64,000 nt of DNA from positions 124,001-188,000 of the forward strand of contig NZ_SDIC01000005.1 of assembly GCF_004116405.1 (NCBI RefSeq), read 5' to 3'. This DNA is from Halegenticoccus tardaugens. GTDB taxonomy: Archaea > Halobacteriota > Halobacteria > Halobacteriales > Haloferacaceae. Below the pieces are notes generated by a model that saw nothing but the letters and a program-made list of their open reading frames with translations, had not been told where the DNA came from and ran no database searches. Each line of letters opens with the position of its first letter. The first letter of the stretch is position 1. Below, one piece after another: positions 1,370 through 31,761 of this stretch. The translations under genes and the position numbers were made by a program.

Positions 1370-2710
1370 CTACCGCGTCGACGCCGCCTGCCTCGCTCCT
1401 ACGCCACCTAACGCGACCCGCCGGTAGAGTTCGGAGAACTTTCCGATCACCGTCTCCGGAGCGAAGTTCTCCAGCTGAGCGGGCACCGCGTCAAGGTACG
1501 CCTTGTAATCGGCGACGAGCTGGTCGAAGGCGTCGGCGAGCGCGCGCTCGTCGCCCGCCGCGAACAGTTCGCCCGCGCCGCCGACGATGTAGTCCATGCT
1601 GCCCACGTCGGAGACGAGGATCGGCGTCCGGGTCGACAGCGCTTCGAGGACGACGCGGCCGAACGGCTCGTCGATGAGCCCCGGGTAAACGAACGCGTCC
1701 GCCGAGCCGTATATTTCTGGGAGGTTGCCGTGATTGACGTAGCCGAGCCACTCGACGTGCTCGTCCGCGCCGACCTCGCGGGCGAGCCGCCGCAGACGAT
1801 CGCCGTACGGCCCTGCGCCCGCAACCTGCAGGCGTACGTCGTGGCCGCGCTTGACGATGTGCGGTAGCGCCCGCACGAGGACGTGAACACCCTTTATGTC
1901 CTGCAGCGCGCCGACGTACAGCAGCGTGAACGGCCCGTCGTCGCGCCGGTCCGATCCGTCGCGCCCGGCTCCGTCACCCGCGCCGGTCGGGCCATCTACG
2001 TCGACCGATCCGCTCACGCCGACCGACCGTTCGAACGTCCGTCGAAACGCCTCGTCGTAGAAATGCGGGATGACCGTGATCCGGTCGCCGGGAAACCCGA
2101 GCGCGTCGTAGTCTGCCTTCATGTGCGGCGAGAGCGCGTGGTATGCGTCGATCTGGTCGGCGTAGGCCATCGATTTCCGCACGAGGTCGATCTTGCCGAG
2201 CGACGAGTATGCGCTGCGAAGCTCGCGTTCGAGCCCTTGCCGGCGCGTCAGCCCGGTTGCGGTGACGCAGCCCGCGCACTTGGCCGGTGATGGACCGGTA
2301 CACTTGCATTTTCCATGGTACATCATATCGCCCTTCGGACACACCGGAACGTAGGAATTCAGCGTCGAGAGGGTTGGCACGTCGAGTTCCGCGAGCACCG
2401 GCACGAACGCCGACGAGTACGAGTGGACGAGATCGTGGCGCTCCATCGCGTCGAGTTCCCCTCTGAGCGCCCGGTGTTTCGCAACGATCGGGTGTGGAAG
2501 CTTCGGCAGGTCGTCGTGGAGCACGTACTCAACGCGGTCCTTGGCTGGCAGGTCGGCATCGGCGGCGTCCATCTGACTCGACACGTACACGGTCAGGTCG
2601 TGGTGGTGCGAGAGACGCTCGACGAGCAGTGTCGACGTTCGGACGGCACCCGTCCCCGCCGCGCCGGGACACTCGGCCGGCACGAACCCGACGTCGAGGC
2701 GCTCCGTCAC
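1370..2710 (-). CDS. GT4 family glycosyltransferase
   Basis: A GT-B-fold glycosyltransferase of 446 residues from a GTG start at 2710. The start is preceded by a purine-rich GAGGGG, and the protein then reads VTERLDVGFVPAECPG, as expected for an N-terminal Rossmann domain. An upstream in-frame extension to 2779 or 2815 is Arg/Gly-rich and less convincing. A Cys cluster (CPKGDMMYHGKCKC...KCAGC) follows the first domain, as in many GT4 enzymes. The C-terminal domain has LLYVGALQDIKGVHVLVRA and the donor-binding EX7E-like motif EPFGRVVLEAL. It should transfer a sugar from a nucleotide donor at the cytoplasmic face. It is divergent from the GT2 gene at 3185, and its promoter region carries a variant of the GTTAGC-N6-TATA module seen at glmU and glmS. 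Confidence 0.88.
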   Translation of the reverse strand: MTERLDVGFVPAECPGAAGTGAVRTSTLLVERLSHHHDLTVYVSSQMDAADADLPAKDRVEYVLHDDLPKLPHPIVAKHRALRGELDAMERHDLVHSYSSAFVPVLAELDVPTLSTLNSYVPVCPKGDMMYHGKCKCTGPSPAKCAGCVTATGLTRRQGLERELRSAYSSLGKIDLVRKSMAYADQIDAYHALSPHMKADYDALGFPGDRITVIPHFYDEAFRRTFERSVGVSGSVDVDGPTGAGDGAGRDGSDRRDDGPFTLLYVGALQDIKGVHVLVRALPHIVKRGHDVRLQVAGAGPYGDRLRRLAREVGADEHVEWLGYVNHGNLPEIYGSADAFVYPGLIDEPFGRVVLEALSTRTPILVSDVGSMDYIVGGAGELFAAGDERALADAFDQLVADYKAYLDAVPAQLENFAPETVIGKFSELYRRVALGGVGARQAASTR

Positions 2711-2835
2711 ACCGATCCCCTCTTGCACTGCCACGTCGGCTCCCTTTCGACCCGCTGCACCGGTACCTCGCCGGCCCATGGGTTCGTCGTCCCGTCGTTC
2801 CGCGCGATCATACAACCGGAATCACCCCCAGAGAG

Positions 2836-2856
2836 CATTATTATGTGCCGGTTAGC
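2836..2856 (-). promoter_or_regulatory. promoter module GCTAAC-N6-ATAATAATG upstream of the GT4 gene
   Basis: On the minus strand this reads GCTAAC, six bases, then ATAATAATG. The last part is a plausible TATA box. The element pair and spacing match the glmU and glmS promoters, with GCTAAC in place of GTTAGC. Transcription would begin near 2812, giving a leader of about 100 nt before the preferred GTG start. Confidence 0.5.
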
Positions 2857-3094: not shown

Positions 3095-3118
3095 CTTAGG
3101 TAGTGTATTATAAAGCGG
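3095..3118 (+). promoter_or_regulatory. promoter module CTTAGG-N6-ATTATAAAG upstream of the GT2 gene
   Basis: CTTAGG, six bases, then ATTATAAAGCGG. The second block is a good archaeal TATA box, predicting a start site near 3138 and a leader of roughly 45 nt. The layout resembles the promoters at 13315, 20505 and 29897. Confidence 0.5.
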
Positions 3119-3184: not shown

Positions 3185-4255
3185 ATGTACAAGGACAACA
3201 CGATCGGGGTCGTCGTTCCAGCGTACAACGAGGAGGGCTATGTCGGGAGGGTCATCGACACAATGCCTAACCTCGTCGACCGCGTGTACGTTATCGACGA
3301 CGGCTCAACGGACGGCACGTGGCGGGAGATTCAACGACACGCCGAGGCGTACAACGGGTCGAACCCCCCAGAAACGCCCGCGTACGAAGCGAGGATCGTC
3401 CCGCTGCAACACGAGGAGAACCGCGGCGTCGGCGGCGCGCTCAAGACGGGCTATCAGCGCGCGCTTGACGACGGAATCGACGTGACGGCCGTGATGGGCG
3501 GCGACGGACAGATGGACCCGGAGGTCCTCACGAAATTCCTCGACCCCGTCGTCGATGGGACGGCCGACTACGCCAAGGGGAACCGCTTCATGCGCAGCGA
3601 GGACCTCGACGCGATGCCGCGGTTCCGACTCGTCGGCAATGCGCTCCTGTCGCTCCTGACGAAAATCGCGAGCGGCTACTGGAAGATCGCCGACCCGCAG
3701 AACGGGTATACGGCAATCTCGCGGGAGTCGCTCGAACGGATCGACATCGAGGATATGTACGAGTACTACGGGTACTGCAACGACCTCCTCGTGAAGCTCA
3801 ACGCCGAGAACTTGCGAGTGGCCGACGTCGCTCACTCGGCCGACACGGTGTACGATGAGACGGACTGGAAGAGCCACATCAAGTACGACGAGTATATCCC
3901 GAAGGTGTCGGCGATGCTGCTCCGGAACTTCCTCTGGCGGTTGAATCGGAAGTACCTTGTGCGCGACTTCCACCCGCTGGCGCTTCTGTACTACTTCGGT
4001 GCGGGCGTCTCCGCGCTGAGCCTCGCCGGTATCGTCGGCACGCTCCGCAAGCGCCACGAGGCGACCGGAAGCTGGCTGCTGTCGCTGTTCCTCGGCGTTT
4101 CGCTCCTCCTGTTCGCGATGGTCTTCGACATGGAAGAAAACCGTGACAAGGAGGTGCAGGTCGACCCTGAACTGGCCGACGACACGGCGACGGACGCGCT
4201 TCGAACGACCGACGAGCGTCAACCGGAAGGTCTCGCGACGGCCGACGATGACTGA
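3185..4255 (+). CDS. GT2 family glycosyltransferase (dolichol-phosphate sugar transferase-like)
   Basis: A 356-residue GT-A-fold enzyme. The N-terminus IGVVVPAYNEEGYVGRVIDTMP and VYVIDDGSTDGTW are the classical nucleotide-binding motifs. MGGDGQMDPE near residue 100 supplies the DXD-type metal site, and KGNRF follows. The region around 260-320 has two hydrophobic segments (LALLYYFGAGVSALSLAGIV and WLLSLFLGVSLLLFAMVF), then an acidic tail. Enzymes of this shape charge dolichol phosphate or add a sugar to a lipid-linked glycan at the membrane. The gene lies 104 bp upstream of the GT-C-like gene in the same direction, so they may form an operon. The exact sugar cannot be read from the sequence. 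Confidence 0.9.
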   Translation: MYKDNTIGVVVPAYNEEGYVGRVIDTMPNLVDRVYVIDDGSTDGTWREIQRHAEAYNGSNPPETPAYEARIVPLQHEENRGVGGALKTGYQRALDDGIDVTAVMGGDGQMDPEVLTKFLDPVVDGTADYAKGNRFMRSEDLDAMPRFRLVGNALLSLLTKIASGYWKIADPQNGYTAISRESLERIDIEDMYEYYGYCNDLLVKLNAENLRVADVAHSADTVYDETDWKSHIKYDEYIPKVSAMLLRNFLWRLNRKYLVRDFHPLALLYYFGAGVSALSLAGIVGTLRKRHEATGSWLLSLFLGVSLLLFAMVFDMEENRDKEVQVDPELADDTATDALRTTDERQPEGLATADDD

Positions 4256-13314: not shown

Positions 13315-13338
13315 CTTAGCGTCCGTATTATAATGAGG
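13315..13338 (+). promoter_or_regulatory. promoter module CTTAGC-N6-ATTATAATGAGG
   Basis: CTTAGC, six bases, then ATTATAATGAGG about 30 bp before the deacetylase ATG. The spacing and both blocks resemble the glmU and glmS promoters. The expected start site near 13355 would give a very short leader. Confidence 0.55.
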
Positions 13339-13366: not shown

Positions 13367-14662
13367 ATGAAGCGACCATCGACCCGCCGTAGCTTCCTCG
13401 CAACGCTCGGCGCCGCCGGAACAGTCTCCATCGCGGGCTGTACCGACGTATTCGGAGAGTCGTCGGAATCGACGGATACCACGACCAAAGAACCGACTGA
13501 CGCCAAGACGTCGGGCGGAGAGGAGATGACCAGCGAACAGTCCGGAAACGAGTCTCCGTTCACGCGCGGCGAACTCGTCGAGGACTTCGAGGGCTTTAAG
13601 AACATCAACAACGCCGATTGGGGAATAATTGGGGGCAACGTGAAACTCGACTCCAAGGAGGTGTACGCCGGTTCCCAATCGCTCAGTCTCGAGAACAAGA
13701 ACGGCGAAGTCGCTGGCCTGTACAAGGCATTCCCAGAGGGGTTAGATCTCTCGAAGCACGACCTGTCGCTCGCAGTTAAACTCGACAAGCCGACCGCTGG
13801 CTACATCGCAGCCGAACTCATCGCCCCTGCGCGCAGCGACATGCTCACCAGTCGGCGCTACATTCCTCAAGAACTGAACGACTGGGTCCGCATCGACTTT
13901 GGATACACCGAGCGCCAGGGCGAGCCGATTCTGAAGGGCGTTCAGGAACTCCGTCTCATGGTGATATCGGATCCAGGAAGTGCTATCCAAGCTAGGATCG
14001 ACGATCTGCGGAAGATCCCTAAGCCAAAGAAGGGGAAGGTTATCTTCCAATTCGACGATAATCACATCTCACAATACGAGACCGCCTTCGACATCCTCAA
14101 AAAGGAAGACATGCCAGGCAGCGTCGGTGTCATCCCGGACACCGTCAACGGCCAAGAAGCACTCTCGGATGGCCACATGCGCGAGATGCGTGACGCGGGC
14201 TGGGACATGATGGCCCACCCGCAGTCGAGCGAACCGCTCCCGGCCTACCCGGCGAACAAACAGCGCGAGATGATTCAGAGCGCGAAGCGCTACCTCGAAC
14301 TCAAGGGGTTCCAGAAGGGTGCCCGGCACTTCGTCGCGCCGTACAACCGCGTGAGCAACGAAACGCTCGACATCGTGAGCGAGTTCCACGAGACTGGGTT
14401 CCTCCAGGGCGCGTGCCCCAGCAACGCGACCGAGCCCAGCTCGATGCACACGATCTCGCGCGTGAACGGCGCGGACGTCGAGGGCGTCCAGCAGATCCTC
14501 AACATCGCCGAGGACACCGGGCAGATGGTCGTCATCGCGTATCACGACATCGGCAATGGCAATAACTACGAGACGACGACCGACCAGTTTAAAAGCATCG
14601 TGAACCACGTCGCTGGGCAGGACATCGACGTCATCACGCCGTCGAAACTGATCGACGGCTGA
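13367..14662 (+). CDS. Tat-exported lipoprotein with polysaccharide deacetylase domain
   Basis: A 431-residue protein. The N-terminus TRRSFLATLGAAGTVSIAGC combines a twin-arginine motif with a lipobox, so it should be exported folded and lipid-anchored at Cys26. A Thr/Ser/Glu-rich linker and a beta-rich domain (about residues 65-215) follow. The NodB-homology domain begins KGKVIFQFDDNH near residue 222. The Asp pair and the later MMAHPQSSE (H-x3-S) supply the metal-site pattern of CE4 esterases, and FVAPYNR and VIAYHDIG match later family motifs. It probably removes acetyl groups from GlcNAc-type residues of a surface glycan. The usual TFDDG is FDDN here. It shares a promoter-module variant with glmU and glmS. 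Confidence 0.88.
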   Translation: MKRPSTRRSFLATLGAAGTVSIAGCTDVFGESSESTDTTTKEPTDAKTSGGEEMTSEQSGNESPFTRGELVEDFEGFKNINNADWGIIGGNVKLDSKEVYAGSQSLSLENKNGEVAGLYKAFPEGLDLSKHDLSLAVKLDKPTAGYIAAELIAPARSDMLTSRRYIPQELNDWVRIDFGYTERQGEPILKGVQELRLMVISDPGSAIQARIDDLRKIPKPKKGKVIFQFDDNHISQYETAFDILKKEDMPGSVGVIPDTVNGQEALSDGHMREMRDAGWDMMAHPQSSEPLPAYPANKQREMIQSAKRYLELKGFQKGARHFVAPYNRVSNETLDIVSEFHETGFLQGACPSNATEPSSMHTISRVNGADVEGVQQILNIAEDTGQMVVIAYHDIGNGNNYETTTDQFKSIVNHVAGQDIDVITPSKLIDG

Positions 14663-15765: not shown

Positions 15766-16441
15766 CTTGAGTTGTGCAAAATTCAAGGTAAAATAATCCT
15801 CACATCGAATTTCAGTCCAGAATATTTTCATCCTAATCAAAGCCGATTTTAGAATGCCATTTTGTGTCGTTGATCGGTTTATTCACCTAGTAACTAAGCT
15901 ACTAGCACCCGGAGAGTAAATTGACGCCTCTCGTTCAGAGGGGTGTCAGACTGCACGGGTCGAGACGGAACAAGAGGGGCCCTACCTCCCACCCCTTGCC
16001 AGCCACCTCCCCTCCCTCCCACCCGTACCGTTTCTCGCAGTCTTTCGCGTCGTTCAGTATCACCGCCCAAGGCGCACTATCGGTGTCCTCATGCTCGGAC
16101 GGTTCTCCCGTTGTGTCTGATGAAACGGATGCGTCGCTCGTCAAACTTCACGGGATAAATGTAACTCGGTAGTGAGTCCTCTTTCGCTCAGAGCGACGGT
16201 GCGACGATCGATTCGAGCATCCGCCATCTGCGTCCCGGCAGTTCCCGCCTTCCGACTCGACCGCGCGTGACCGGCTCATCGATCGCGTTCTCGCAGGTAG
16301 CACCGACCGAAGAAGCGGGTTCTGCGAACGAGCAGGGCCTTTCGAGAACACTTACGCGTCGGGTCGAGAGACCGCGTCGGCTTCGACTTATTTACCGTCT
16401 AATAAAGACCTCTGTCGTGCAAGGTCGGAACAAGGAAAACC
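15766..16441. other. intergenic region, decayed sequence
   Basis: About 675 bp. A minus-strand frame at 15935-16144 reads TTGEPSEHEDTDSAPWAVIL then NDAKDCEKRYGWEGG. It may be the tail of an unrecognised gene, but it has no clear start or partner. A TATA-like CTTATTTAC near 16388 may serve the gene at 16442. Confidence 0.35.
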
Positions 16442-17218
16442 ATGCCGACCGCAGTTTCACGAACGGACGTGTGGGTACGGGGGAGACCGCGGAGCCGCGC
16501 GGTTGGCGAACAATCCTTCTGGGGTCGCCTTCCGCGTCGATTCAGCAGTGACGACCGATTCATTCAGGCCGGTCTCTTCGTCGCGGGCCTTTTGTTTTTT
16601 ATCGGTGCCGTCGCGGTCGTGATAGGTATTCCGGGCTCATCCGGAATGATTCCGGGTCCCGACGACGCGACCCCGGTTCCGGAGACGGACTCCGACATGA
16701 ACAACACCTCAACGCCAGAGGAAGAATCGGAAACGCCGGGGGGAGAGAACGAAGAGACAGCAACGCAGACGGCGACGCCAGAAACGCAAACCGACACTCC
16801 GACGCCAGAGCCGTCTACCGGAACCCAGTCTACCGAAGAACCGTTTACTGGAACCCAGTCTACCGAAGAACCGTTTACTGGAACCCAGTCTACCGAAGAA
16901 CCGTTTACTGGAACCCAGTCTACCGAAGAACCGTCTACCGAAACCCCGAAATGGACGACCGAGGACAATTCCTCGATTTTCGACCCGCCGAATCAGGGGA
17001 ACAATAGCGACGGTAACAACACAAACGGCGGAAATAACGACGGAGATGACACTGACGACAGTGACGACGGTTCCTCCAACGATCAAACTACGACCGCCGA
17101 ACCAACGCAAGACAGCTCCTCGGACGGGTCGAATAGTACGCTCTTCGGCGGATCGAACGATACGTTGGGGAACGACACGGGGGTCTCGATAGACCCGAGT
17201 CCGACATTCAACGATTAG
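16442..17218 (+). CDS. membrane-anchored, Thr/Pro/Glu-rich surface protein with tandem repeats
   Basis: A 258-residue protein of unrecognised family. A basic N-terminus of about 40 residues leads to one membrane segment (about 41-64, IQAGLFVAGLLFFIGAVAVV). The rest is low complexity: Thr/Glu/Pro-rich to about residue 175, including four 10-residue repeats of the type GTQSTEEPFT, and then Asn/Asp/Gly/Ser-rich. Such stretches are typical of extended, O-glycosylated stalks on haloarchaeal surface proteins. NNTS and NNT sequons are also candidate N-glycosylation sites. Function beyond a surface role cannot be assigned. It stands alone between element remnants. Confidence 0.7.
   Translation: MPTAVSRTDVWVRGRPRSRAVGEQSFWGRLPRRFSSDDRFIQAGLFVAGLLFFIGAVAVVIGIPGSSGMIPGPDDATPVPETDSDMNNTSTPEEESETPGGENEETATQTATPETQTDTPTPEPSTGTQSTEEPFTGTQSTEEPFTGTQSTEEPFTGTQSTEEPSTETPKWTTEDNSSIFDPPNQGNNSDGNNTNGGNNDGDDTDDSDDGSSNDQTTTAEPTQDSSSDGSNSTLFGGSNDTLGNDTGVSIDPSPTFND
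16811..16940 (+). repeat. 30-bp tandem repeat, four units, inside the surface protein gene
   Basis: Units start at 16821, 16851, 16881 and 16911 and are almost identical in DNA, with a partial unit before the first. Each encodes GTQSTEEP plus FT or ST. The near identity points to recent expansion or contraction by slippage or recombination. Confidence 0.92.
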
Positions 17219-18587: not shown

Positions 18588-19961
18588 ATGACACTGTTCG
18601 GAACGAGCGGCATCCGGGGACCCGTCGGCGAAGACGTGACGGCCGAGCTAGCGCTGTCTGTCGGCCGGGCGATCGCCTCTGAGGGTGCAGGGACTATCGT
18701 CGTTGGGCGCGATCCGCGCGACAGCGGACGGATGCTCGCCGACGCCGCGACGGCCGGCGTGCGCGAGTGCGGAGCCGACGTTGTCGATCTCGGCGTAGTG
18801 GCGACGCCGACGCTCGCGCGGAGCGTCGGGTGGTACGACGCCGACGCGGGGATCATGGTGACCGCCTCGCACAACCCCGCGCCGGACAACGGATTGAAGC
18901 TCTGGAATCCGTCGGGCCAGGCGTTCGACACCGACCAGCGTGCCGCGATGGAAGCGCGAATCGAAGCCGGCGAGTACGCCCTTCGACCATGGGACGAACT
19001 CGGCGAGCGATCGTTCGAAGACGCCGCGACGGCGCGCCACGTCGACGAACTCGTTGCGGCGATTCAGACAGGGGACAAGTTCGAGAGAAGTCTAACGGGG
19101 AGAGACGAGAACGGACCGCTCTCGGGCCTCTCGGTCGCCGTCGACCTGGGCAACGGTGCCGGCGGACTCACCGTCGACGCGCTCTCGGCGCTCGGCGCGC
19201 ACGTGACGACGCTCAACGCGCAACCCGACGGACGATTCCCCGGCCGTCCGAGCGAGCCGACAGGGGAGAACTGCCGGGCGCTGTGCGAGTTCGTCGCGAG
19301 CACCGACGCGGACCTCGGCATCGCCCACGACGGCGACGCGGATCGGATGCGCGCCGTCACGGAGTCCGGCCGATTCATCCAGGGAGACGTCCAGCTCGCG
19401 CTGTTCGCGCGCTCGGTCGTCGACGAGGGCATGCGCGTCGCGGCTCCGGTCAACATCAGTCTCGCGGTCGACGACGAACTGGCGGCGAGGGGTGCGTCGC
19501 TCGTGCGCACGCGCGTCGGTGACGTGTTCGTCGCCGAGCGAGCGACCGAATCGGACGTCGTCTTCGGCGGCGAGTCCAGCGGCGCGTGGATCTGGCCGGA
19601 GGAGACGCTCTGCCCCGACGGCCCGCTGGCGGCCTGCAAGCTCGCCACTCTCGCCGCTGAGAGCGGGTCGCTCGACGCGCTCGTCTCGGAGATCGAGTCG
19701 TACCCGCTCCGCCGCGGCAGCGTCGAACTCGACGACAAGTACGGCGTGATGGACCGAGTCGAGGAGGCGATCGTCGCCGAGTACGACGACGACCGGCTGA
19801 CGACGATCGACGGCGTCCATGTCGTCTTCGACGACGGGTGGTTCCTGATCCGCGCCAGTGGAACTCAGCCGATCGTCCGGCTCACGGCCGAGGCCCGGAG
19901 CGAGCAGCGGGCGGACGAACTGCTCGATCGGGCGGCGGCGTTCGTGGAACGCGCTCGCTAG
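18588..19961 (+). CDS. glmM: phosphoglucosamine mutase / phosphohexomutase
   Basis: A 457-residue alpha-D-phosphohexomutase with all four family motifs. TASHNP (Ser94) is the phosphoserine loop, HDGDADRM near residue 248 binds magnesium, GGESSGAW near residue 325 contacts the sugar, and RASGTQPIVRLTAEA near the C-terminus holds the phosphate. The length is normal. glmU is 600 bp downstream and glmS lies at 27.9-29.7 kb, so the likely reaction is glucosamine-6-phosphate to glucosamine-1-phosphate for UDP-GlcNAc. Phosphomannomutase or phosphoglucomutase activity cannot be excluded from sequence. A transposon-derived element now separates it from glmU. Confidence 0.9.
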   Translation: MTLFGTSGIRGPVGEDVTAELALSVGRAIASEGAGTIVVGRDPRDSGRMLADAATAGVRECGADVVDLGVVATPTLARSVGWYDADAGIMVTASHNPAPDNGLKLWNPSGQAFDTDQRAAMEARIEAGEYALRPWDELGERSFEDAATARHVDELVAAIQTGDKFERSLTGRDENGPLSGLSVAVDLGNGAGGLTVDALSALGAHVTTLNAQPDGRFPGRPSEPTGENCRALCEFVASTDADLGIAHDGDADRMRAVTESGRFIQGDVQLALFARSVVDEGMRVAAPVNISLAVDDELAARGASLVRTRVGDVFVAERATESDVVFGGESSGAWIWPEETLCPDGPLAACKLATLAAESGSLDALVSEIESYPLRRGSVELDDKYGVMDRVEEAIVAEYDDDRLTTIDGVHVVFDDGWFLIRASGTQPIVRLTAEARSEQRADELLDRAAAFVERAR

Positions 19962-19985: not shown

Positions 19986-20324
19986 CGAAGGCCTCTTCCT
20001 TACCGAGCGAGCGAGTAGGGAGGGGATACAGAGCCCGCACAGTTCACGTTCACTGTCTGGGCATATTTACTACCCGTGCAGTCGAGCGGGAAGTAAGACC
20101 CTTATCACGTTTCCACTGGCGTTCAAACGCGACAAGAAGCGTGCATCGGCGGTTGTGGCCCGAGTGTCGAGACGGTAAGAGTGGTTCACTCCGACCCGCC
20201 CAGCAAGGGAACCGCCTGCGGAGTCTGGAACCGCTGTGCCTTCGAGTGCACGTGCCGACGCAAACACAGGAAGCCCAGACCTCAAGGAGCGCCCGAAGGG
20301 CGCGAGTAGGTAGGGGTAGTTCAC
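19986..20324 (+). mobile_element. short element C carrying a tnpB-type right end and no gene
   Basis: About 339 bp. The left end is a TTCCTTACCGAGCG-type palindrome followed by GTAGGGAGGGGATACAG, as at 31886-31926. The right end reads CTCAAGGAGCGCCCGAAGGGCGC, then GAGTAGGTAGGGGTAGTTCAC, which is the 3' terminus of haloarchaeal IS1341-type tnpB elements. Upstream of this is a stretch with tnpB-tail character (CCTGCGGAGTCTGGAACC). The body is far too short for a transposase. It may be a deletion derivative mobilised in trans, or a solo omegaRNA-like gene. Confidence 0.6.
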
Positions 20325-20504
20325 TCACGAATGGCAGTGTCGTGGCACGGAGCCACGCCGCTCGGTGTGACTGTCGATTGGGGGTTTCGACCTTCGAACG
20401 AGACTCCCCCTCCCCGATCGTGTGAAACACGCACTAAGGTCCGTGCTACCCAGCTTAAGTCAGCTCCATCTATCGGTTTCGTCTCAACTCGATGCCGAGA
20501 ATCC

Positions 20505-20553
20505 GTTAGCGGGCCCATAATAATGGGCGCATGAGTAGTACCGTCCTGGTACT
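20505..20553 (+). promoter_or_regulatory. glmU promoter: GTTAGC-N6-ATAATAATGGG and a start-site palindrome
   Basis: GTTAGC (20505-20510), six bases, then ATAATAATGGG (20517-20527) with CCCAT before it. Both blocks and the spacing are identical at glmS (29897-29919). A second palindrome, AGTACC-N5-GGTACT (20537-20553), covers the expected transcription start and ends seven bases before the ATG. Confidence 0.65.
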
Positions 20554-20559
20554 TAGACT

Positions 20560-21741
20560 ATGCAGGCAGTTATCCTTGCGGCTGGCCAGGGAACCCGAAT
20601 TCGACCTCTCTCAGACGCGATACCGAAGCCGATGCTGCCCGTCGCGGACCGTCCCATCGTCGCCCACGTCGCCGACGCCGCCGTCGCGGGCGGTGCGGAC
20701 GAGCTGATCTTCGTCGTCGGCTACCTCAACGAGCAGGTCCGCGAGTACTTCGGGGAGGAATACGCCGGCGTGCCGGCTCGCTACGTCGAACAGGAGGATC
20801 AACTCGGAACCGCCGACGCGGTCAACACCGCCCGGGAGTGGATCGACGGCTCGTTCGCGGTGCTGAACGGCGACAATCTCTACGACCCGGAAAGCGTCGC
20901 GATGCTCTTCGACCGCGCCCCGAGCATCGGCGCATACACCGTCGAGAACCCGACGAACTATGGGGTACTCTCGACGAACGGCGAGACCGTCACCGCCATC
21001 GTCGAAAAGCCGGCCGACCCGCCGACGAACCTCGCGAACGCCGGGGCTTACGTCTTTCCTGAGGAAGCGCGCGAATATCTCGACGTCCCCGAGAGCGAGC
21101 GCGGCGAGCACGAGATCACGGACGTCGTAGAGCGCGTTGTCGGCGAACACGACGTGACGGCGGTGACCCTCTCCCGCTGGCTCGACGTCGGTCGTCCCTG
21201 GGAGCTTTTAGAGGCCAACGAACTCCTCTTGGGCGAATTGGAGCGCGACCTCGTCGGCGACGTCTCCGAGGACGCGGAACTGCGCGGGAAGGTCGTCGTT
21301 GAGGAGGGCGCGACGGTTGAACCAGGTGTGGTCATCGAGGGGCCGGCGCTCGTCCGCGCCGGCGCGAAGGTGGGTCCGAACGCGTACGTCCGGGGGGCGA
21401 CCCTCGTCGGCGAGGACGCCCGCATCGGGCACGGGGTCGAGGTCAAAAACAGCGTCCTGATGGCGGGCGCGCACGTCTCGCACCTCTCGTACGTGGGCGA
21501 CAGCCTCCTCGGGCGGGACGTGAACTTCGGTGCCGGCACGAACGTCGCGAACCTCCGTCACGACGACGAGCCGGTGACGCTGACGGTGAAAGGCGAGCGC
21601 GTCTCGACCGGCCGCCGAAAGTTCGGCGTCGTCGCCGGCCACGGCGCGAAAACCGGCATCAACACGAGCCTCAACCCGGGTTTGACCCTCTCTTCGGGCG
21701 CGACGACGCTGCCCGGCGAGACGGTGCTGAGGGACCGTTGA
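20560..21741 (+). CDS. glmU: bifunctional sugar-1-phosphate nucleotidylyltransferase / acetyltransferase
   Basis: A 393-residue two-domain enzyme. The N-terminal pyrophosphorylase domain (about 1-225) opens with MQAVILAAGQGTRIRPLSDA and PKPMLPVADRPI. It has QLGTADAVNTA and VLNGDNLYD for substrate and metal binding. The C-terminal domain (about 245-390) is a left-handed beta helix of hexapeptide repeats (VVEEGATVEPGVVIEGPALV onwards). It includes FGAGTNVANLRHDD, a common archaeal acetyltransferase-domain segment. The likely products are GlcNAc-1-phosphate and UDP-GlcNAc. The gene has its own promoter module shared with glmS. The flippase gene follows after 55 bp. Confidence 0.92.
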   Translation: MQAVILAAGQGTRIRPLSDAIPKPMLPVADRPIVAHVADAAVAGGADELIFVVGYLNEQVREYFGEEYAGVPARYVEQEDQLGTADAVNTAREWIDGSFAVLNGDNLYDPESVAMLFDRAPSIGAYTVENPTNYGVLSTNGETVTAIVEKPADPPTNLANAGAYVFPEEAREYLDVPESERGEHEITDVVERVVGEHDVTAVTLSRWLDVGRPWELLEANELLLGELERDLVGDVSEDAELRGKVVVEEGATVEPGVVIEGPALVRAGAKVGPNAYVRGATLVGEDARIGHGVEVKNSVLMAGAHVSHLSYVGDSLLGRDVNFGAGTNVANLRHDDEPVTLTVKGERVSTGRRKFGVVAGHGAKTGINTSLNPGLTLSSGATTLPGETVLRDR

Positions 21742-21796
21742 CGAAGCGACTGAGGGCTACCACGCCCTAAAAGGACTATCAACCCCGCGAAACATC

Positions 21797-23320
21797 GTGC
21801 AACGAAATTTAGTCACCGCGTTCACGTGGATGGCCGGCGGACGGGTTCTCGCCCTCATCGTCTCCGCTCTCGCCGCACCGCTTCTGTTCCGTTTCCTCGG
21901 GCAGGGACAGTACGGCGAGTACGGATCGGTCATCGCCATCTTCAACATCCTCATGATCCTCGTGAGTTCGGGGATCAACGGCGGGGTCCGCAAGTACATC
22001 TCCGAAGAGCGCGAGTCGGACACGTGGAAGGACTTCGTCTTCGCATACTACTTCCGCATCGCCCTCATGATGGCGCTTCTCGCGGCGCTCTCGCTGGCGG
22101 TGGGCGCGTACACCGGAATCCTGTCCGATCTCATGAGCGCGGACTACACCCTGTACTTCTACTTGCTTTCGATCCTCATGCTCGCGGCCCAACTGCGCGA
22201 GTACAGCCGACGCGCGCTTCTGGGGCTGAAGCTCGAACACCTCGGCGAGGGGATGTACTTCCTCTATCAGATCACGTTCAGCGTTACGGCCGTCGGGCTG
22301 GCGTGGCTCGGCTACGGGGTCGTCGGCGTGATTCTCGGGTACATCATCTCCAGTCTGGTCGTCTTCTTCTGTTCGATGTTCTTCCTTCGGAAGTATATCT
22401 CGCTCAGGCGGTTGTTTAAGCCGATTCCCGACGACTTTCCGAAGCGAGAGTTATTCAACTTCAACCACTACTCCACGCTCTATTACTTCCTGCTCACGTC
22501 GATGTACCACGTTGACGTGGTCCTCCTCGACATGATGATCGTCTCAGAACAGGTTGGTGCGTACAAGGCGGTGCTGGTGATCGTTGAGTTCCTCTGGTTC
22601 GCCCCTAAAACGGTGCAGTCGATCCTCGTCCACTCCACGTCGAACATGTGGTACCAGGGCCAGATCGAGCGCATCCAGGAACTGGCCTCCCGATCGACCC
22701 GGTATGCGCTTCTCCTCACGACGCTCATGGGTATCGGACTCGGCGCACTTGCGGGCGATTTCTTTCCGCTCTACTACGGTGCGGACGCATCAGAAATGGT
22801 CCCGCCGCTTCTCGTACTGCTCCCAGGAACCATCGGGTTCGCCATCGCGCGGCCGCTCCTGTCGATCAACCTCGCAAAGGGTGAGATGAAGATCGTCATC
22901 TTCGCCGTGACAATCGCGGCGGCGATCAACCTGACACTCAACGTGCTGCTCATCCCGCGCTTCGGGACCGTCGGTGCGGCGATCGGGACTACGTGCGGGT
23001 ATGGCTCGCTTCCGTTCCTCCAGGTGTGGGTCGGACGACACCTCGGGTACAACCCGTTCGTGGACATCCGCTTCGGCCGCATCGCGCTGACGTCGCTCGG
23101 AGCGGCCGTCCCGATCGTGGGGCTCTCGCTCCTCATTGACAACTCGCTGCTCGCGCTTCTCGTCGTCCCGCCGGTCGGCTTCGTCGCTTACTCGGCGCTC
23201 GCGATCGCCACCGGCGCGATTTCACTCGACGAGATCTTCGAGATCCTCGGATCGTTCCCCGAACCGGTCTCCTCGAAGGCCGCGGCACTACGGGGACGTG
23301 TCAACTCACGCGGCGATTAG
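21797..23320 (+). CDS. oligosaccharide flippase (MOP superfamily, Wzx/AglR-like)
   Basis: A 507-residue integral membrane protein with about 12-14 hydrophobic segments. It opens with VQRNLVTAFTWMAGGRVLAL and GQGQYGEYGSVIAIFNILMI. The fold and the charged cytoplasmic loops match the polysaccharide transporter family that turns lipid-linked oligosaccharides across the membrane. The GTG at 21797 is the natural start; no ATG lies close by. It follows glmU in the same direction. A second, clearly different flippase lies at 50581-52116. The substrate would be the dolichol-linked glycan of this locus, by context. Confidence 0.88.
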   Translation: MQRNLVTAFTWMAGGRVLALIVSALAAPLLFRFLGQGQYGEYGSVIAIFNILMILVSSGINGGVRKYISEERESDTWKDFVFAYYFRIALMMALLAALSLAVGAYTGILSDLMSADYTLYFYLLSILMLAAQLREYSRRALLGLKLEHLGEGMYFLYQITFSVTAVGLAWLGYGVVGVILGYIISSLVVFFCSMFFLRKYISLRRLFKPIPDDFPKRELFNFNHYSTLYYFLLTSMYHVDVVLLDMMIVSEQVGAYKAVLVIVEFLWFAPKTVQSILVHSTSNMWYQGQIERIQELASRSTRYALLLTTLMGIGLGALAGDFFPLYYGADASEMVPPLLVLLPGTIGFAIARPLLSINLAKGEMKIVIFAVTIAAAINLTLNVLLIPRFGTVGAAIGTTCGYGSLPFLQVWVGRHLGYNPFVDIRFGRIALTSLGAAVPIVGLSLLIDNSLLALLVVPPVGFVAYSALAIATGAISLDEIFEILGSFPEPVSSKAAALRGRVNSRGD

Positions 23321-23582
23321 CACCTGTCGAGTGCGTATTGATGGGTGATATCTCGAGACATGACCGAAAAAGTTTAATTTACTTCACACGTCGAACGAAC
23401 GTCTCCACGACCAGTTCCGATCGTCTGACGTGAGTCACACCAATATCAGATAACAAATTGTTTCGACTTCCAATAAACGGTTATCAACAGACGGCGGCGG
23501 ATTGTTCACCTGAACAGGGATCTGATGAAACAGTCTGTAACGATCGGGAGAGTGCGATTAGTTTAATATCCGTCCTGTAAAT
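23321..23582. promoter_or_regulatory. intergenic region with a leaderless-type promoter
   Basis: About 260 bp. TTTAATAT at 23561-23568 stands some 20 bases before the ATG at 23583, the spacing expected for a leaderless haloarchaeal transcript. No other feature was seen. Confidence 0.4.
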
Positions 23583-24266
23583 ATGGCACTACACATGACT
23601 GCCACGCAGTCTGGTGGTACGTCCCCCGCGACGATTACCAGGGAGGAGGAATCGGCTCGACCCGTCGAGCTTGCGAAGGATGAGCTGTTTCACATTCTAC
23701 AGAACCAGCGGCGACGATATGTGCTCCGATACCTGCAAGGGCGCGACGAGCAGGTCCGGATGCGCGACGTCGCAGAGCAGGTCGCCGCTTGGGAACACGA
23801 GACAACCGTGCAGGCGCTCACGACCGATGAGCGCCAGCGCGTGTACATCTCGCTGTATCAGTGTCACCTGCCTAAACTCGCCGACGAAGGCGTGATCGAG
23901 TACAATCAGTCCCGTGGTCACGTCGTCCGTACTTCGCTCGCGGATCAACTCGATCCGTATCTCGACGCGACCGCCCGGACCGAGACGTCGAGCGCACCGG
24001 CCGCCTCTACCGCGACTGACCCGGCCGACGCGACCGAACGATCGATTGAGTCAGAGCGTGATAGCCCCGTCCCCGCGCGAGCCGACGACACGCGCTGGCT
24101 CGGCTACTACCTCGGCGCGACGGGTATCGGCATCGCTCTCCTCACCGCCGTCAGATTAAGTCCCGCCGCGTTCGCCGGCGTTTCCGACCTCGCGATCGGT
24201 GCCGCCATCCTCGGACTGTTCTCGATACTGACGATGTGGCAACTGTTCGACAGACCTTCGAACTGA
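23583..24266 (+). CDS. DUF7344-like winged-helix protein with C-terminal membrane segments
   Basis: A 227-residue protein. Residues about 30-125 (KDELFHILQNQRRRYVLRYL, then VAEQVAAWE and HLPKLADEGVIEYN) form the winged-helix domain typical of haloarchaeal DUF7344 regulators. A hydrophilic Ala/Thr/Asp-rich linker and two hydrophobic segments (about 172-190 and 193-215) follow. It may be a membrane-tethered transcription factor. Such genes often accompany haloarchaeal surface-glycan loci. A second ATG four codons in is an alternative start. The target genes cannot be deduced, and the function is inferred from the fold. Confidence 0.75.
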   Translation: MALHMTATQSGGTSPATITREEESARPVELAKDELFHILQNQRRRYVLRYLQGRDEQVRMRDVAEQVAAWEHETTVQALTTDERQRVYISLYQCHLPKLADEGVIEYNQSRGHVVRTSLADQLDPYLDATARTETSSAPAASTATDPADATERSIESERDSPVPARADDTRWLGYYLGATGIGIALLTAVRLSPAAFAGVSDLAIGAAILGLFSILTMWQLFDRPSN

Positions 24267-24437
24267 TCGACCGACGATCGTTCGGTGGCCGGCGGGAGTC
24301 AAGCAGTCGTCGATGGCTGGCTGATGACCGATTACCGGATTCAGGCGAGAAAGCCTACGGCACTAGTTGCGGGTATATGACTTCTATCTTTAATCAGCGA
24401 GAGAATCCCGCCATTTACGGCGGGGAGGATGTCACCA

Positions 24438-24830
24438 ATGCCTCGTGGATACAGCAGGGAATAGACTTCAATCCACAACCTGCACTACCATTTCATCTAG
24501 TGCCCGAAGTACCGCAAGGCAGTGCTCACCGACGACGTACACGACCGTCTCAAAGCTCTCATCCATGAAAAGGCGGACGAACTCGGCGTGGCCATCATCA
24601 GTTTGTCCATCCAGCCCGACCACGTTCATCTGTTCATCGAGGGCAACCCGAAGCTTGCACCGAACAAAATCATCCAGCAGGTCAAAGGCTACTAGTCGCG
24701 CGTTCTCCGCGATGAGTTCGGAAGCATGGGTTTGCCGTCGGTGTGGACCCGAAGCTACTTTGTGTCCCCTGCCGGTACAGTGTCGGACGAAATCATCGAG
24801 GAATACACCGAGGCGCAAACAGGCCAATGA
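24438..24830 (+). pseudogene. tnpA: tnpA with three in-frame TAG codons
   Basis: A single frame of 131 codons encodes the whole Y1 transposase: MPRGYSRE, TSIHNLHYHFI, CPKYRKAVLTDDVHDRL, QPDHVHLFIEGN (HUH motif) and [21 protein letters not shown]. It is interrupted by TAG at codons 9, 21 and 76. The second TAG replaces the Trp of the VWCPKYR-type motif, and the third follows KGY, where Trp is common, so TGG to TAG changes explain at least two. There are no frameshifts. The start is inferred from the conserved MPRGYSR-type N-terminus. Confidence 0.85.
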
Positions 24831-26121
24831 AGCGCGTCAACACCTTCCGAGTCGTTCCCCGTTCCGACGCGGACGTTGAGTGCCTTCGGCGGGTGTTGGA
24901 CGCTTCGGCAAGCCTTTGGAATCAGTTGAACTACGAGCGTCGGCAGAATTTCACCGACCCAGAAATCGACAAGTCGGTATGGGAAACCGAGGACTACCGC
25001 AAACAGTATGTCGGAGTTCTCGGCAGTGCGATGGCTCAACAGGTGATTCGAAAGAACGACCAAGCGTGGCATTCGTTCTTCAAGCGCAAGGAATCCGGCG
25101 AGAAGTGAGCGGACTTCTCGGCTACTGGGGCAACGAGGAAGAAAGGCGCGACCTTCGGTCGTACATCCGCAGCGACCAGTACCGACTTCGGTGGGCTACC
25201 GGCAGCAGCAACCAGTCAATACTCGAAATATCGGTCGGCAAAGACCTGAAAGACGAGTTCGACATCGGGCACCGCGAACGGCTCCGCTTCGAAGTGCGAG
25301 GCGAACCGAAGTGGACGGGCGACCAGTGTCAACTCGAACTTTTCTACGACGAGCGTTCCGACCAATTCAGGGCCATCCAACCTGTTAAAAACTGTTCTCG
25401 GCAGGATTCACCATTAGTCGACGAAACGACTGCTCTGGACGTGGGCGCGAACAACATCGTCGCGTGCAGTACGACCACTTGCAAACAGTTCTTGTACGAA
25501 GGGAGGGACGTGTTCACCCACTTCCGCGAGACGACGGAACGAATCACCAAGTATCAGTCGCTCGTCAATCGTGACGAAGGACGGTATTCGACCAACAGGA
25601 TACGGCGACTGTATCGGAAGTGAATGGCCCGGCGAGACCATGCGATGGACGCACTCGCCCGCGACTTGATGGAGCGCCTTCACGTCGAAGGCGTTTCGAC
25701 CGTCTTCGTCGGCGACCTCACGAGTGTTCTCGAAACCCACTGGTCGGTCGAAGTAAACGCGAAAACGCACAACTTCTGGGCGTTTCGCGCGTTCATCAAC
25801 CGGCTTGCATACACAGTCGAGGAATACGGTATCACCGTCGAAGCACGGTCGGAAGCGTGGACCTCCCAAGAGTGTCCCGACTGCGGCGAACGCGACGAGA
25901 CTGTTCACCACCGCGATACGCTCATGTGTCCGTGTGGCTTCGAGGGCCACGCGGACCTCACGGCGTCAGAGACGTTCCTGAATCGGTAAATGAGCAACGA
26001 AGTAGGGGCGATGGCACGTCCCGTACGCCTCAAGTAGGACGCCCACACCTGGGCGGAGTCACCACACTCTCGTCCGAACGAGATCCGCCCGCACCAGCAA
26101 AAAACCTTCGTCGGCGCTTAG
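24827..26121 (+). pseudogene. tnpB: tnpB RNA-guided endonuclease, broken (copy 2)
   Basis: The start overlaps the tnpA stop (ATGA). [20 protein letters not shown] runs to [10 protein letters not shown], where the frame shifts at about 25105. The next segment carries SGLLGYWGNEEERRDLRSYI and RuvC-I ALDVGANNIVA. A TGA at 25621 interrupts RRLYRK and [15 protein letters not shown]. The zinc finger [22 protein letters not shown] and Ruv[12 protein letters not shown] follow. A TAA, a TAG and a final TAG at 26121 break the tail. As in copy 1, the expected RuvC-II Glu is Gly (VFVGDL). Copy 2 lacks the 60-bp insertion and so defines the uninserted site. Confidence 0.87.
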
Positions 26122-26176
26122 ACCCCGATCGGAGGAATCCCACGTCTAAAGACGTGGGAGGATGTCAATTCGACAG

Positions 26177-27892: not shown

Positions 27893-27922
27893 CGTCGGTA
27901 GTGTCGATCGCCTCCGCTGCGG

Positions 27923-29731
27923 TTACTCCACTGTAACACTCTTTGCAAGGTTCCGTGGTTTGTCGATCTCGCGTCCAAGGAGGTTCGCGGTGTAGTAGGA
28001 GACAAGTTGGAGCTGGACGTTCGCCAGCAACCCCGCGAGGTCGGGGTGCGTCTTCGGCACCCACAGCACACTGTCGGCGACGTCACCGACGTCTGTCCCG
28101 TCGGGCGCGACGGCGACGATGTTTGCGCCCCTGGTGTGCGCCTCCTCGGCGTTCTTTCGCGTCTCTTCGCCGTTCGTCCCGGTGAACAGCGCGAACACCG
28201 CCGTCTCGTCGGTCACGAGCGCGAGCGGGCCGTGCTTGAGTTCGCCGGACGCGAATCCCTCGGCGTGTTCGTACGTGATCTCCTTGAACTTCAGCGCTCC
28301 CTCCAGCGCGACCGGGAACTCGTTGTCCCGGCCGATGAAGAAGTACGAGCGCTTGTCGAGGTACTTCTCGCTGATCTCCCGGGCCCGCGTCGTCTCCAAC
28401 ACCTTCTCGATGTGGGTGGGTAGTCGCCGCAGTTCGGCGAAGAACTCCGCGGCGTCCTCGCGGGGGCGGCCCCGTTCGAGATCCTCCGCGAGCCGGTGTC
28501 CGAGCAGCGTGAGCGTGACGACCTGCGAGGAGAATGTCTTGGTCGCGGCGACGCCGATTTCCGGGCCCGCTCGGATATACAGGGCGTGATCGGCCTGGCG
28601 AGCGGCACTCGACCCGACGACGTTCGTCACGGCGACTGTCTCGGCCCCCGCGTCCTGCGCGGCCCGGAGCGCGCTCATCGTGTCCGCGGTTTCGCCGCTC
28701 TGGGTCACGGCGACGACGAGCGTCCGATCCGTGACCGTCGTCGTGTCGTACTCGCTCGCGAGGTTCGCGTGCGCTCGAATTCCCGCCCGTCGGAGCAACT
28801 GAACGCCGTAGAGCGCGGCGTGGTAGGAGGTGCCGCAGGCGACGAACTCGACCTCGTCGATGTCCTCGAACGTCCCCGGCGGGAACTCTTCGAGGTGAAT
28901 TGATCCATCGTCGCCGATCCGTCCGGCGATGGTGTTCGCGATGGAGTCGGCTTGCTCGTTGATTTCCTTGAGCATGTAGTGGGTGTACTCTCCCTTACCG
29001 GTCTCCTCGGCGCTCCACTCGACCGTCTCGACGTCGCGATCGACGACGTTTCCCTCCCTGTCCGTGAGCATCAGTTCACCCGGTCGCACCTTCGCGAACT
29101 CGCCGTCTTCGATGTAGATCACCTCGTCCGTGAAGTCGAGAAAGGCGGGCACGTCGCTCGCGAGATAGTACCGATCATCGTCGACGCCGATGACGAGGGG
29201 GGAGTCCTGCCGAGCAGCGTAGACGGTGTCAGTGCCGTTGATCATGAGCGCGATTGCGTAACTGCCGTCGAGTTCGCCGATGGCGGTCTTGAACGCGTCT
29301 TCGACGTCCAGCCCCTCGTCGAGGTGGTGTTCGACGAGATGTGGGATCACCTCGGTGTCGGTCTCGCTTTTGAACTCGTAGCCCTCGGCCGCCAGCCGCC
29401 GTCGGATCGACTCGTAGTTCTCAATGATGCCGTTGTGGACGACGACCACCCGATCGGTGCGGCTCGTGTGAGGGTGGGCGTTCGCGTCCGTCGGCGGGCC
29501 GTGCGTGCTCCAGCGCGTGTGGCCGATGCCGACCGTCCCGTTCGGTACGTCGCGGGCGATCGTGTTCTTCAGCTCGCTGATCTTGCCGGCCTTCTTGCGG
29601 ACGGCGATACCCGTCCCATTCTGGACCGCGATTCCAGCGGAGTCGTATCCGCGATACTCCAGGTTTTCGAGGCCGGTCAGTAGCTCGCCGACCGCGTCGT
29701 CGGACCCGATGCACGCAATGATTCCGCACAT
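27923..29731 (-). CDS. glmS: glutamine--fructose-6-phosphate aminotransferase (isomerizing)
   Basis: A full-length 602-residue enzyme. MCGIIACIGS exposes the catalytic Cys after Met removal. LEYRGYDSAGIAV and GHTRWSTHG are glutaminase motifs (domain about 1-220). Two SIS domains follow, with VACGTSYHAALYG near residue 290 and SQSGET-type VAVTQSGETADTMSALR. The C-terminus PRNLAKSVTVE is the signature closing segment with the catalytic Lys. It makes glucosamine-6-phosphate from fructose-6-phosphate and glutamine, the first step to UDP-GlcNAc, and feeds GlmM and GlmU encoded in this window. Its promoter module is identical to that of glmU. Confidence 0.96.
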   Translation of the reverse strand: MCGIIACIGSDDAVGELLTGLENLEYRGYDSAGIAVQNGTGIAVRKKAGKISELKNTIARDVPNGTVGIGHTRWSTHGPPTDANAHPHTSRTDRVVVVHNGIIENYESIRRRLAAEGYEFKSETDTEVIPHLVEHHLDEGLDVEDAFKTAIGELDGSYAIALMINGTDTVYAARQDSPLVIGVDDDRYYLASDVPAFLDFTDEVIYIEDGEFAKVRPGELMLTDREGNVVDRDVETVEWSAEETGKGEYTHYMLKEINEQADSIANTIAGRIGDDGSIHLEEFPPGTFEDIDEVEFVACGTSYHAALYGVQLLRRAGIRAHANLASEYDTTTVTDRTLVVAVTQSGETADTMSALRAAQDAGAETVAVTNVVGSSAARQADHALYIRAGPEIGVAATKTFSSQVVTLTLLGHRLAEDLERGRPREDAAEFFAELRRLPTHIEKVLETTRAREISEKYLDKRSYFFIGRDNEFPVALEGALKFKEITYEHAEGFASGELKHGPLALVTDETAVFALFTGTNGEETRKNAEEAHTRGANIVAVAPDGTDVGDVADSVLWVPKTHPDLAGLLANVQLQLVSYYTANLLGREIDKPRNLAKSVTVE

Positions 29732-29896
29732 CAGCGATACCCCTCCTGCGTCGGTTTCGTGCTTTTCTCGGCGGGCGTCCCGCCACCCGTTCGGTCGTGC
29801 AAGCCCGGTCGAATCATAGTTTCGCGTTCACGTTCTCCTTCGCGCCTCCCGAAGCGAGGAGGCTGCGATTCCGTGACAGTCGGTACTGCTGATATA

Positions 29897-29920
29897 CCCA
29901 TTATTATACGCGGGCTAACG
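29897..29920 (-). promoter_or_regulatory. glmS promoter: GTTAGC-N6-ATAATAATGGG
   Basis: On the minus strand CCGTTAGC, six bases, then ATAATAATGGG. Blocks and spacing are the same as at glmU (20503-20527). The start site would be near 29872, giving a leader of about 140 nt before the glmS ATG; such a leader could hold further control, but no known riboswitch structure was recognised. Confidence 0.65.
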
Positions 29921-30282
29921 GAACGGTCGCCGATTCCGACCGGTTTTCGGCGTGATGGATTTGATGATCACGCCGTAGTCGGGCGTTTTTCAGGCTTCCT
30001 CCCTCCAACGACCGGGTGTAGGACACGTCGGTATCTTGGCTTAGGAGGCGGATAAGCGCCGGTTGCGGGCCTGCAATCGTGGTTTGGGATCTCGCGTCAG
30101 AGGAGATTTTGCACCGCGTCAGCGATCCTCGATGACGATCGTCGGTCTTAATCTTGATATCTTCCCTGCGCCTACAGGCGCGGAAATCCTTTCGCTGGAA
30201 GTTTCAGTTTCTGCTGGACCACCATGCGAGCGACTTTCTCCTCACGGCTACTCCGGTTTGTATGCGCTTCTTTGGGACGTTT
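29921..30282. other. intergenic region between the glmS promoter and tnpB element copy 3
   Basis: About 360 bp. A short hairpin, CTGCGCCTACAGGCGCGG, lies near 30167-30184. No gene was recognised. Confidence 0.35.
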
Positions 30283-30287
30283 GTGAA

Positions 30288-31551: not shown

Positions 31552-31674
31552 CTACGAGCGTTCTTCGATGAGTTCGTCGAGCTTCTCTTGGACGAACGAG
31601 GAGAGATTCAGGTGGTTTTTCTGAATCCACTCGGCTTGGTCGTCGCGGATAGAGATGTTCTTGCGCGTTGCCAC
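31552..31674 (-). CDS. small RHH-like protein immediately upstream of tnpB
   Basis: A 40-residue frame from a GTG: VATRKNISIRDDQAEWIQKN, then HLNLSSFVQEKLDELIEERS. A short beta strand followed by two helices with FVQEKLDELI is the pattern of an Arc/CopG ribbon-helix-helix protein. Its TAG is directly followed by the ATG of tnpB, so the two were translationally coupled. A TATA-like CTTATTTGTGTA lies about 25 bases before the GTG, fitting a leaderless transcript. It probably regulated the element. It is intact while tnpB is not. Confidence 0.62.
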   Translation of the reverse strand: MATRKNISIRDDQAEWIQKNHLNLSSFVQEKLDELIEERS

Positions 31675-31761
31675 ACCACACAGTGGGCAAAATACACAAA
31701 TAAGATTTCGATTGCGTAGGCCTGTGGGCCGAGCGTCGAACGTGCTTGAGAACTGTGCGGG

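Follow-up and report, generated by a model that had tools for sequence, protein, structure and literature searches.

How does a haloarchaeon coordinate the supply of UDP-GlcNAc, which is made by GlmS, GlmM and GlmU, with the synthesis of its glycans? Control of archaeal surface glycans and exopolysaccharides is little understood, and the question is raised by a glycan cluster of Halegenticoccus in which an earlier note had described an identical promoter module upstream of glmU and glmS, together with variants of it upstream of a deacetylase, a GT2 and a GT4 gene. The window, i.e. the whole stretch of 64,000 nucleotides that was analysed, corresponds to C10:124001-188000 in a genome of 4.89 Mb (rated 7.9% contaminated in the genome record), and the gene starts in the examined loci are those given by a simple gene caller. 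It was compared with the sister species Halegenticoccus soli (H. soli) and with Halogranum amylolyticum, Halogranum rubrum and Halobium salinum, against a background of 20 stretches of 20 kb and a few other loci, complemented by whole-genome pattern and model searches. The sites and genes on which the argument turns are the following.

1370..2815, minus strand: GT4 glycosyltransferase, start uncertain (PF00534)
2834..2856, minus strand: site upstream of the GT4 gene, a weak degenerate copy, GCTAAC-CGGCAC-ATAATAATG (14.1 bits; 11.9-14.8 bits with leave-out matrices)
3095..3117, plus strand: GT2 promoter module, CTTAGG-TAGTGT-ATTATAAAG, kept in H. soli, both Halogranum and Halobium
3185..4255, plus strand: GT2 glycosyltransferase (PF00535)
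13315..13337, plus strand: promoter module of the polysaccharide deacetylase lipoprotein gene, CTTAGC-GTCCGT-ATTATAATGAG, kept in H. soli and both Halogranum
13367..14662, plus strand: polysaccharide deacetylase with a lipoprotein-like N-terminus (PF01522)
16387..16409, plus strand: weak site CTTATTTACCGTCTAATAAAGAC, 33 nt 5' of ORF 16442-17218, which is without a confident family match (16.4 bits; 14.1-17.4 bits in leave-out scans)
18588..19961, plus strand: glmM, phosphoglucosamine mutase (TIGR03990)
20505..20527, plus strand: glmU promoter module, GTTAGC-GGGCCC-ATAATAATGGG; the orthologous sites are GTTAGCCGGCCCATAATAATGGG in H. soli and CTTAACCGGCTCATAATAATGGG in Halogranum rubrum
20560..21741, plus strand: glmU, archaeal bifunctional sugar-1-phosphate nucleotidylyltransferase/acetyltransferase (TIGR03992, 521 bits)
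21797..23320, plus strand: Wzx-type polysaccharide flippase, 3' of glmU (PF01943)
23583..24266, plus strand: candidate regulator, a DUF7344 winged helix followed by two predicted C-terminal transmembrane helices (PF24035, 108.9 bits, above the Pfam gathering cut-off of 27.8)
27923..29731, minus strand: glmS, glutamine-fructose-6-phosphate transaminase (TIGR01135, 726 bits)
29897..29919, minus strand: glmS promoter module, GTTAGC-CCGCGT-ATAATAATGGG; the same site is found at glmS in H. soli, the two Halogranum and Halobium

All five sites are present where the earlier note had placed them, the GT4 copy spanning 2834-2856 on the minus strand, and the names it had given to the five genes agree with TIGRFAM and Pfam models. 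What glmU and glmS share is the pair of conserved blocks, which are identical; the six spacer bases differ (GGGCCC vs CCGCGT), so the identity does not extend to the whole stretch. The constant six-base spacing is borne out by 18/18 sites in the cluster loci of five genomes, where spacings of 1-5 and 7-13 do not occur at all. The GT4 site, listed previously as a variant of the family, does exist but only as a weak degenerate copy of ~14 bits; its orthologues are weak as well (15.5-18 bits), that of H. soli reading ATTACG. The idea that GCTAAC is an inverted half-site, being the reverse complement of GTTAGC, was discarded, the orthologues being degenerate xTTAC forms. No strong site is found upstream of glmM in the Halegenticoccus window, and the Halogranum rubrum orthologue has a weak one. 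Beyond the window, sites were found at C10:123218 (a DegT operon) and C10:118150 (an acetyltransferase), and additional promoters of the cluster carry YTTAC variants.

The element is rare and its occurrences are clustered. There are only seven exact matches to (S)TTAG-N7-ATWATAA in the 4.89 Mb of the Halegenticoccus genome, against none for the reversed control, and five of these lie inside C10:123222-153918, which is less than 31 kb and a single glycan cluster. In H. soli, the orthologous cluster accounts for all five matches to TTAG-N7-ATWATAA (control 0), and clustered matches are also seen in the two Halogranum genomes and Halobium. With a profile model built from 24 sites, the six sites of the C10 cluster take the top ranks genome-wide. 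Since this profile includes sites of the genome itself, matrices were rebuilt without this genome and without the whole genus, and the sites were still recovered. The genus-free matrix gave seven matches above 14 bits in 84 kb of cluster regions vs five in 496 kb elsewhere, a comparison sequence that deliberately included known hit loci. The recurrence of this two-block element is not due to chance, nor is the motif equally common upstream of random genes, a possibility that the earlier note had left standing: the genome-wide count and the generic promoters of this genome, which are without the upstream block, both speak against it.

A few matches lie elsewhere. At C2:77229 (L009 9230-9252), the element is directly 5' of a gene encoding a DsrE-like lipoprotein, and a lipoprotein gene of similar type in another genus has a comparable site before it (L081 9858-9880), so the element does not mark glycan genes exclusively. 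At C8:391142 (L216 9141-9163), another such site is 5' of an asparagine-synthase-like gene, 1.5 kb from a DUF7344 gene, and this asparagine-synthase-like domain is also found in the gene beside glmS. Two isolated matches are without glycan neighbours, one with a subtilase (L010) and one where no gene was called (L086); these are possibly chance occurrences or additional members of the regulon.

Conservation across haloarchaea follows the same genes. The element is kept at glmS and GT2 in 5/5 genomes, and at the DegT operon and the deacetylase in 4/5, while the glmU element is found in both Halegenticoccus genomes and, in a diverged form, in Halogranum rubrum. Orthologous promoters thus retain it, contrary to the loss at glmS and glmU in relatives that would have spoken against a shared module. 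Each gene tends to retain its own spacer sequence across genera, which argues that these are old, separate promoters rather than recent copies. On a wider scale, 70 of 80 haloarchaeal glmS loci have a site above 14 bits close upstream, in the diverged form TTA...TATARTAATG, and no intragenic match above 14 bits was found in any of the 80; in the same loci the element also occurs 5' of UDP-sugar dehydrogenase and glmU genes. The profile of the glmS promoters shows little information at the flanking positions and is partly circular, as loci were selected by their best score above 14 bits; because of this selection, the count of 70 loci and the lack of intragenic matches are stronger evidence than the profile. 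Weak conservation of TA is seen in glmS promoters at -21/-20 and -10/-9 from the site start, i.e. upstream of TTAG and about one helical turn apart. The exact pattern of the diverged form is found in 124 of the 391 genomes of the order, mainly in three families (about ten genomes for the reversed control), and other members of this set of matches lie 5' of additional glycan operons.

What kind of promoter is this? The distance from the centre of ATWATAA to the first suitable start codon 3' of it has its peak at 30-34 nt, as expected if this block occupies the TATA position of near-leaderless transcripts. In 253 upstream regions of the same genome, A is enriched at -35 to -33 and the TATA region is T-rich, in agreement with the published haloarchaeal consensus in which an A-rich BRE (CGAAA) is located directly upstream of TATA, itself TTWT (quoted in PMC4983044). 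No such A-rich BRE is found in the N6 spacer of the element, of which only 8% is A, with no A in the three bases adjoining TATA. As this spacer is the BRE slot, TTAG lies just above it, and the suggestion that the upstream block sits where the BRE would be was off by about one BRE length; that there is no typical BRE here holds true of the slot itself. A short element at a fixed distance from the TATA position is what is seen in upstream-activator promoters of the GvpE type, and TTAG occupies the same place as the activating sequence of GvpE (PMC4390858). A mechanism can be outlined in which ATWATAA (TATARTAATG in the diverged form) would be the TATA element and TTAG, at its fixed distance (STTAGS, then 6 bp), would be contacted by a regulator that recruits TBP/TFB to an otherwise weak core promoter. 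Such a promoter would probably be activator-dependent.

The genes concerned would make a coherent regulon. The DegT operon and its neighbours contain genes for a Gfo/Idh oxidoreductase, an aminotransferase and a hexapeptide acetyltransferase, as well as for nucleotide-sugar dehydrogenases; one of these dehydrogenases is near the UDP-GlcNAc dehydrogenase model TviB (below its cut-off). We take this gene set to match the route to UDP-diacetamido-uronic acids. The rest of the cluster consists of glycosyltransferases, the flippase and the deacetylase. With glmS, glmU, the glycosyltransferases, the deacetylase and this uronic acid pathway (dehydrogenase, Gfo/Idh, DegT aminotransferase and acetyltransferase), which would itself be UDP-GlcNAc-derived, all switched on together, the motif would join precursor supply to assembly, which makes sense biologically. 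The proposal that UDP-GlcNAc supply is coordinated with glycan synthesis is therefore supported, in the form of a shared cis element, by the rarity of this element and its conservation at glmS and glmU, and that it co-regulates both seems to us very probable on the evidence of the sequence.

Which protein might read the element? A dedicated TFB or a regulator had been envisaged, and it is for the latter that a candidate emerged, encoded within the cluster downstream of the flippase gene. The AlphaFold2 model of this DUF7344 protein shows a winged helix (pLDDT >90 for ~residues 31-130) followed by two membrane-length helices, and its fold resembles HxlR, ArsR and RosR structures with Z ~10; Foldseek with this model returned no match at E<=0.001, and a search of PDB sequences found no homologue. 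DUF7344 genes recur within motif clusters, and one clade is linked to such clusters in several haloarchaeal families. Copies from glycan clusters group in the DUF7344 tree (2 label changes vs 11.7 in shuffles), and the paralogues of the same genome outside glycan clusters are distant. The one unlabelled member of the clade is a gene on C8 of the same genome (L205 6673-7293), which groups with the H. soli copy upstream of glmS; at the corresponding place in the window (~30450-31700), where relatives have a DUF7344 gene, there is transposase-like sequence, and an IS200/605-type transposase match is found at 24880-25620. Close relatives (E<1e-35) are present in 23/24 motif-positive vs 2/26 motif-negative genomes (Fisher p ~1e-10, uncorrected for phylogeny), in a set of genomes hand-picked once the motif was known, and their median distance to a motif site is 8 kb. 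The correspondence has its exceptions: the cluster copy of Halobium is divergent, one genome (G067) has a glmU site without a close DUF7344 and two (G082 and G178) have a close DUF7344 without the exact motif. This clade is, by guilt by association, the leading candidate for the regulator, its DNA binding being inferred from the predicted winged-helix fold and from linkage. The most likely regulator would thus be the DUF7344 protein of the cluster, whose winged helix would lie in the cytoplasm and be anchored in the membrane through the two helices, making it possibly a sensor of the state of the envelope. Among open-licence papers, none was found that describes DUF7344 or names a haloarchaeal regulator of UDP-GlcNAc supply. 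The whole model, in which a dedicated promoter class is served by an activator and DUF7344 is that activator, appears to us somewhat more probable than not.

These alternatives accept the element to different degrees. That the similarity is trivial, reflecting generic core promoters or a recent duplication of promoters within the cluster, is barely credible: every site does have a TATA-like element, but the sites vary outside the conserved bases, gene-specific spacers are kept across genera and the element recurs in other families. A generic core promoter was rejected, the generic promoters of this genome being without the TTAG block. A reading in which the element is a repressor operator over the TATA box and not an activator site is unlikely, yet it has arguments of its own. 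Conservation at glmS promoters extends past TATA into ATGG, which would suit a TATA-covering repressor equally, and there is a short dyad of TTA and TAA (TTA-N12-TAA). This dyad is however imperfect outside both triplets, and a core promoter without BRE favours dependence on an activator. Alternatively, a dedicated TFB/TBP pair could take the place of a conventional regulator at these promoters, since BRE is absent, ATAATAATGG differs from the haloarchaeal TATA consensus TTWT (PMC4983044), haloarchaea carry several TFBs (PMC4390858) and a TFB gene is found near a second glycan cluster, on contig C1. This we consider improbable because the TTAG block is beyond the region at the BRE where TFB would be expected to make contact. 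Of the loci longer than 5 kb, just two cluster loci (L219 and L145) and one random stretch have TFB-like genes, and a TFB linked to the cluster was discarded as not conserved, a TFB encoded elsewhere being possible.

The remaining alternative keeps the promoter class and changes the protein, the regulator being a DUF7343 winged-helix membrane protein, an HxlR-type regulator or a factor encoded elsewhere. A DUF7343 protein, in some copies with TSP3 repeats, is often encoded just 5' of glmS, and it adjoins this gene in many loci of Natrialbaceae, Halogranum, Haladaptatus, Halococcaceae and Haloarcula. HxlR-type genes are found in the clusters of H. soli, Halogranum and Halobium, one with the motif in its own promoter (L269). 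However, DUF7343 has no match in the cluster stretches of Halegenticoccus C10 or H. soli (paralogues being elsewhere in both genomes), no HxlR gene was called in the Halegenticoccus cluster, and neither protein is found in every motif cluster. A search for the DUF7343 domain alone is uninformative, because it is present in all genomes tested. We regard another regulator as a possible but rather unlikely explanation, and retain the DUF7344 clade as the preferred candidate.

The same genome has a paralogous glycan cluster on contig C1 (L209, L218 and L219), with glmS and glmM paralogues and its own DUF7344 genes, one adjoining the glmS paralogue and another that immediately follows a site; a DUF7343 gene and the TFB gene mentioned above are also found there. 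This cluster uses a variant site, GGTA(G/A)-N7-ATAACAAAG.

Does transcription account for all of the control at glmS? In bacteria, UDP-GlcNAc supply is controlled by the glmS ribozyme. In Halegenticoccus, a search of Rfam with positions 20000-31000 of the window gave no match at gathering scores, whether to the glmS ribozyme or to a known riboswitch. The leader of glmS, which is 100-200 nt long or more, has two features of a different kind.

29731..29817, minus strand: upstream ORF (uORF) in the glmS leader, encoding the peptide MIRPGLHDRTGGGTPAEKSTKPTQEGYR, with a stop codon that overlaps the glmS start (TGATG)
29840..29868, minus strand: hairpin rich in G+C, located in the glmS leader 5' of the uORF (single-sequence z -1.43 for this stretch of the leader)

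A uORF of at least 20 codons, whose stop is located from 7 nt before to 1 nt into the glmS start codon, abuts or overlaps this start in 52 of 54 non-redundant haloarchaeal leaders, obtained from 70 glmS loci (G000, L087-L166), as compared with a mean of 2.7 and a maximum of 8 in shuffled sequences. The encoded peptides are variable, Arg/Ser/Thr-rich and acidic-poor, unlike most haloarchaeal proteins. A uORF that is present while its peptide varies suggests that it is coupled translation, more than the peptide, that is under selection; this would amount to a putative layer of translational control, through which glmS would be subject to a second, translationally coupled regulation. The hairpin is suggestive only, since RNAalifold on a MAFFT alignment of glmS leaders found no consensus structure; single-sequence z-scores of these leaders range from +0.3 to -2.4. 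The bacterial glmS ribozyme likewise centres control on GlmS, as does GlmR (PMC7525490), whereas here control would apparently be transcriptional, with a coupled uORF in addition. Put together, these elements outline a picture that is tentative and that we would not yet call probable: a promoter class shared by several haloarchaeal families, in which BRE is replaced by a TTAG contact read by the membrane-tethered winged-helix DUF7344, would couple the state of the envelope to UDP-GlcNAc flux, with regulator and site co-diverging in paralogous clusters and with translational control added at glmS by the conserved, coupled, Arg/Ser/Thr-rich uORF.

Known archaeal systems offer partial precedents. 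The upstream activating sequence of GvpE consists of two 8-nt elements, 4 nt apart, next to a recognisable BRE and is bound by a leucine-zipper-like activator (PMC4390858). It is, as TTAG, a short element right upstream of the core promoter, and the close distance at which both are placed is essential for GvpE, which activates weak core promoters (PMC4390858); in contrast, the element described here combines a single short block with a conserved but unusual TATA and lacks a BRE. The archaellum regulators CsmR (Haloferax) and EarA (Methanococcus) also control a cell-surface structure from a promoter-proximal site above BRE/TATA; EarA binds via a winged helix and a mutation in BRE bypasses the need for it, whereas the CsmR motif is different (TATCA-N4-TGATA), as is its regulon (PMC13286277). 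ArnR, going by the description in a title cited in PMC13286277, is a membrane-bound one-component activator of the crenarchaeal archaellum, which is reminiscent of the candidate DUF7344 protein, but in a different lineage and with a different regulon. RosR of Halobacterium salinarum (PDB 6qfd and 6ez1) has a winged-helix fold to which DUF7344 residues ~28-142 are similar, with an identity of only 11-13%; these RosR structures span ~110-116 residues, whereas DUF7344 adds two C-terminal membrane helices.

By defining a regulon together with its exact site and a candidate family of regulators, these findings make the control of archaeal surface glycans a directly testable question. A promoter class without the usual BRE but with a fixed upstream contact bears on the mechanism by which archaeal activators work, and the conserved uORF of glmS suggests that amino-sugar synthesis is under translational control at its first step.
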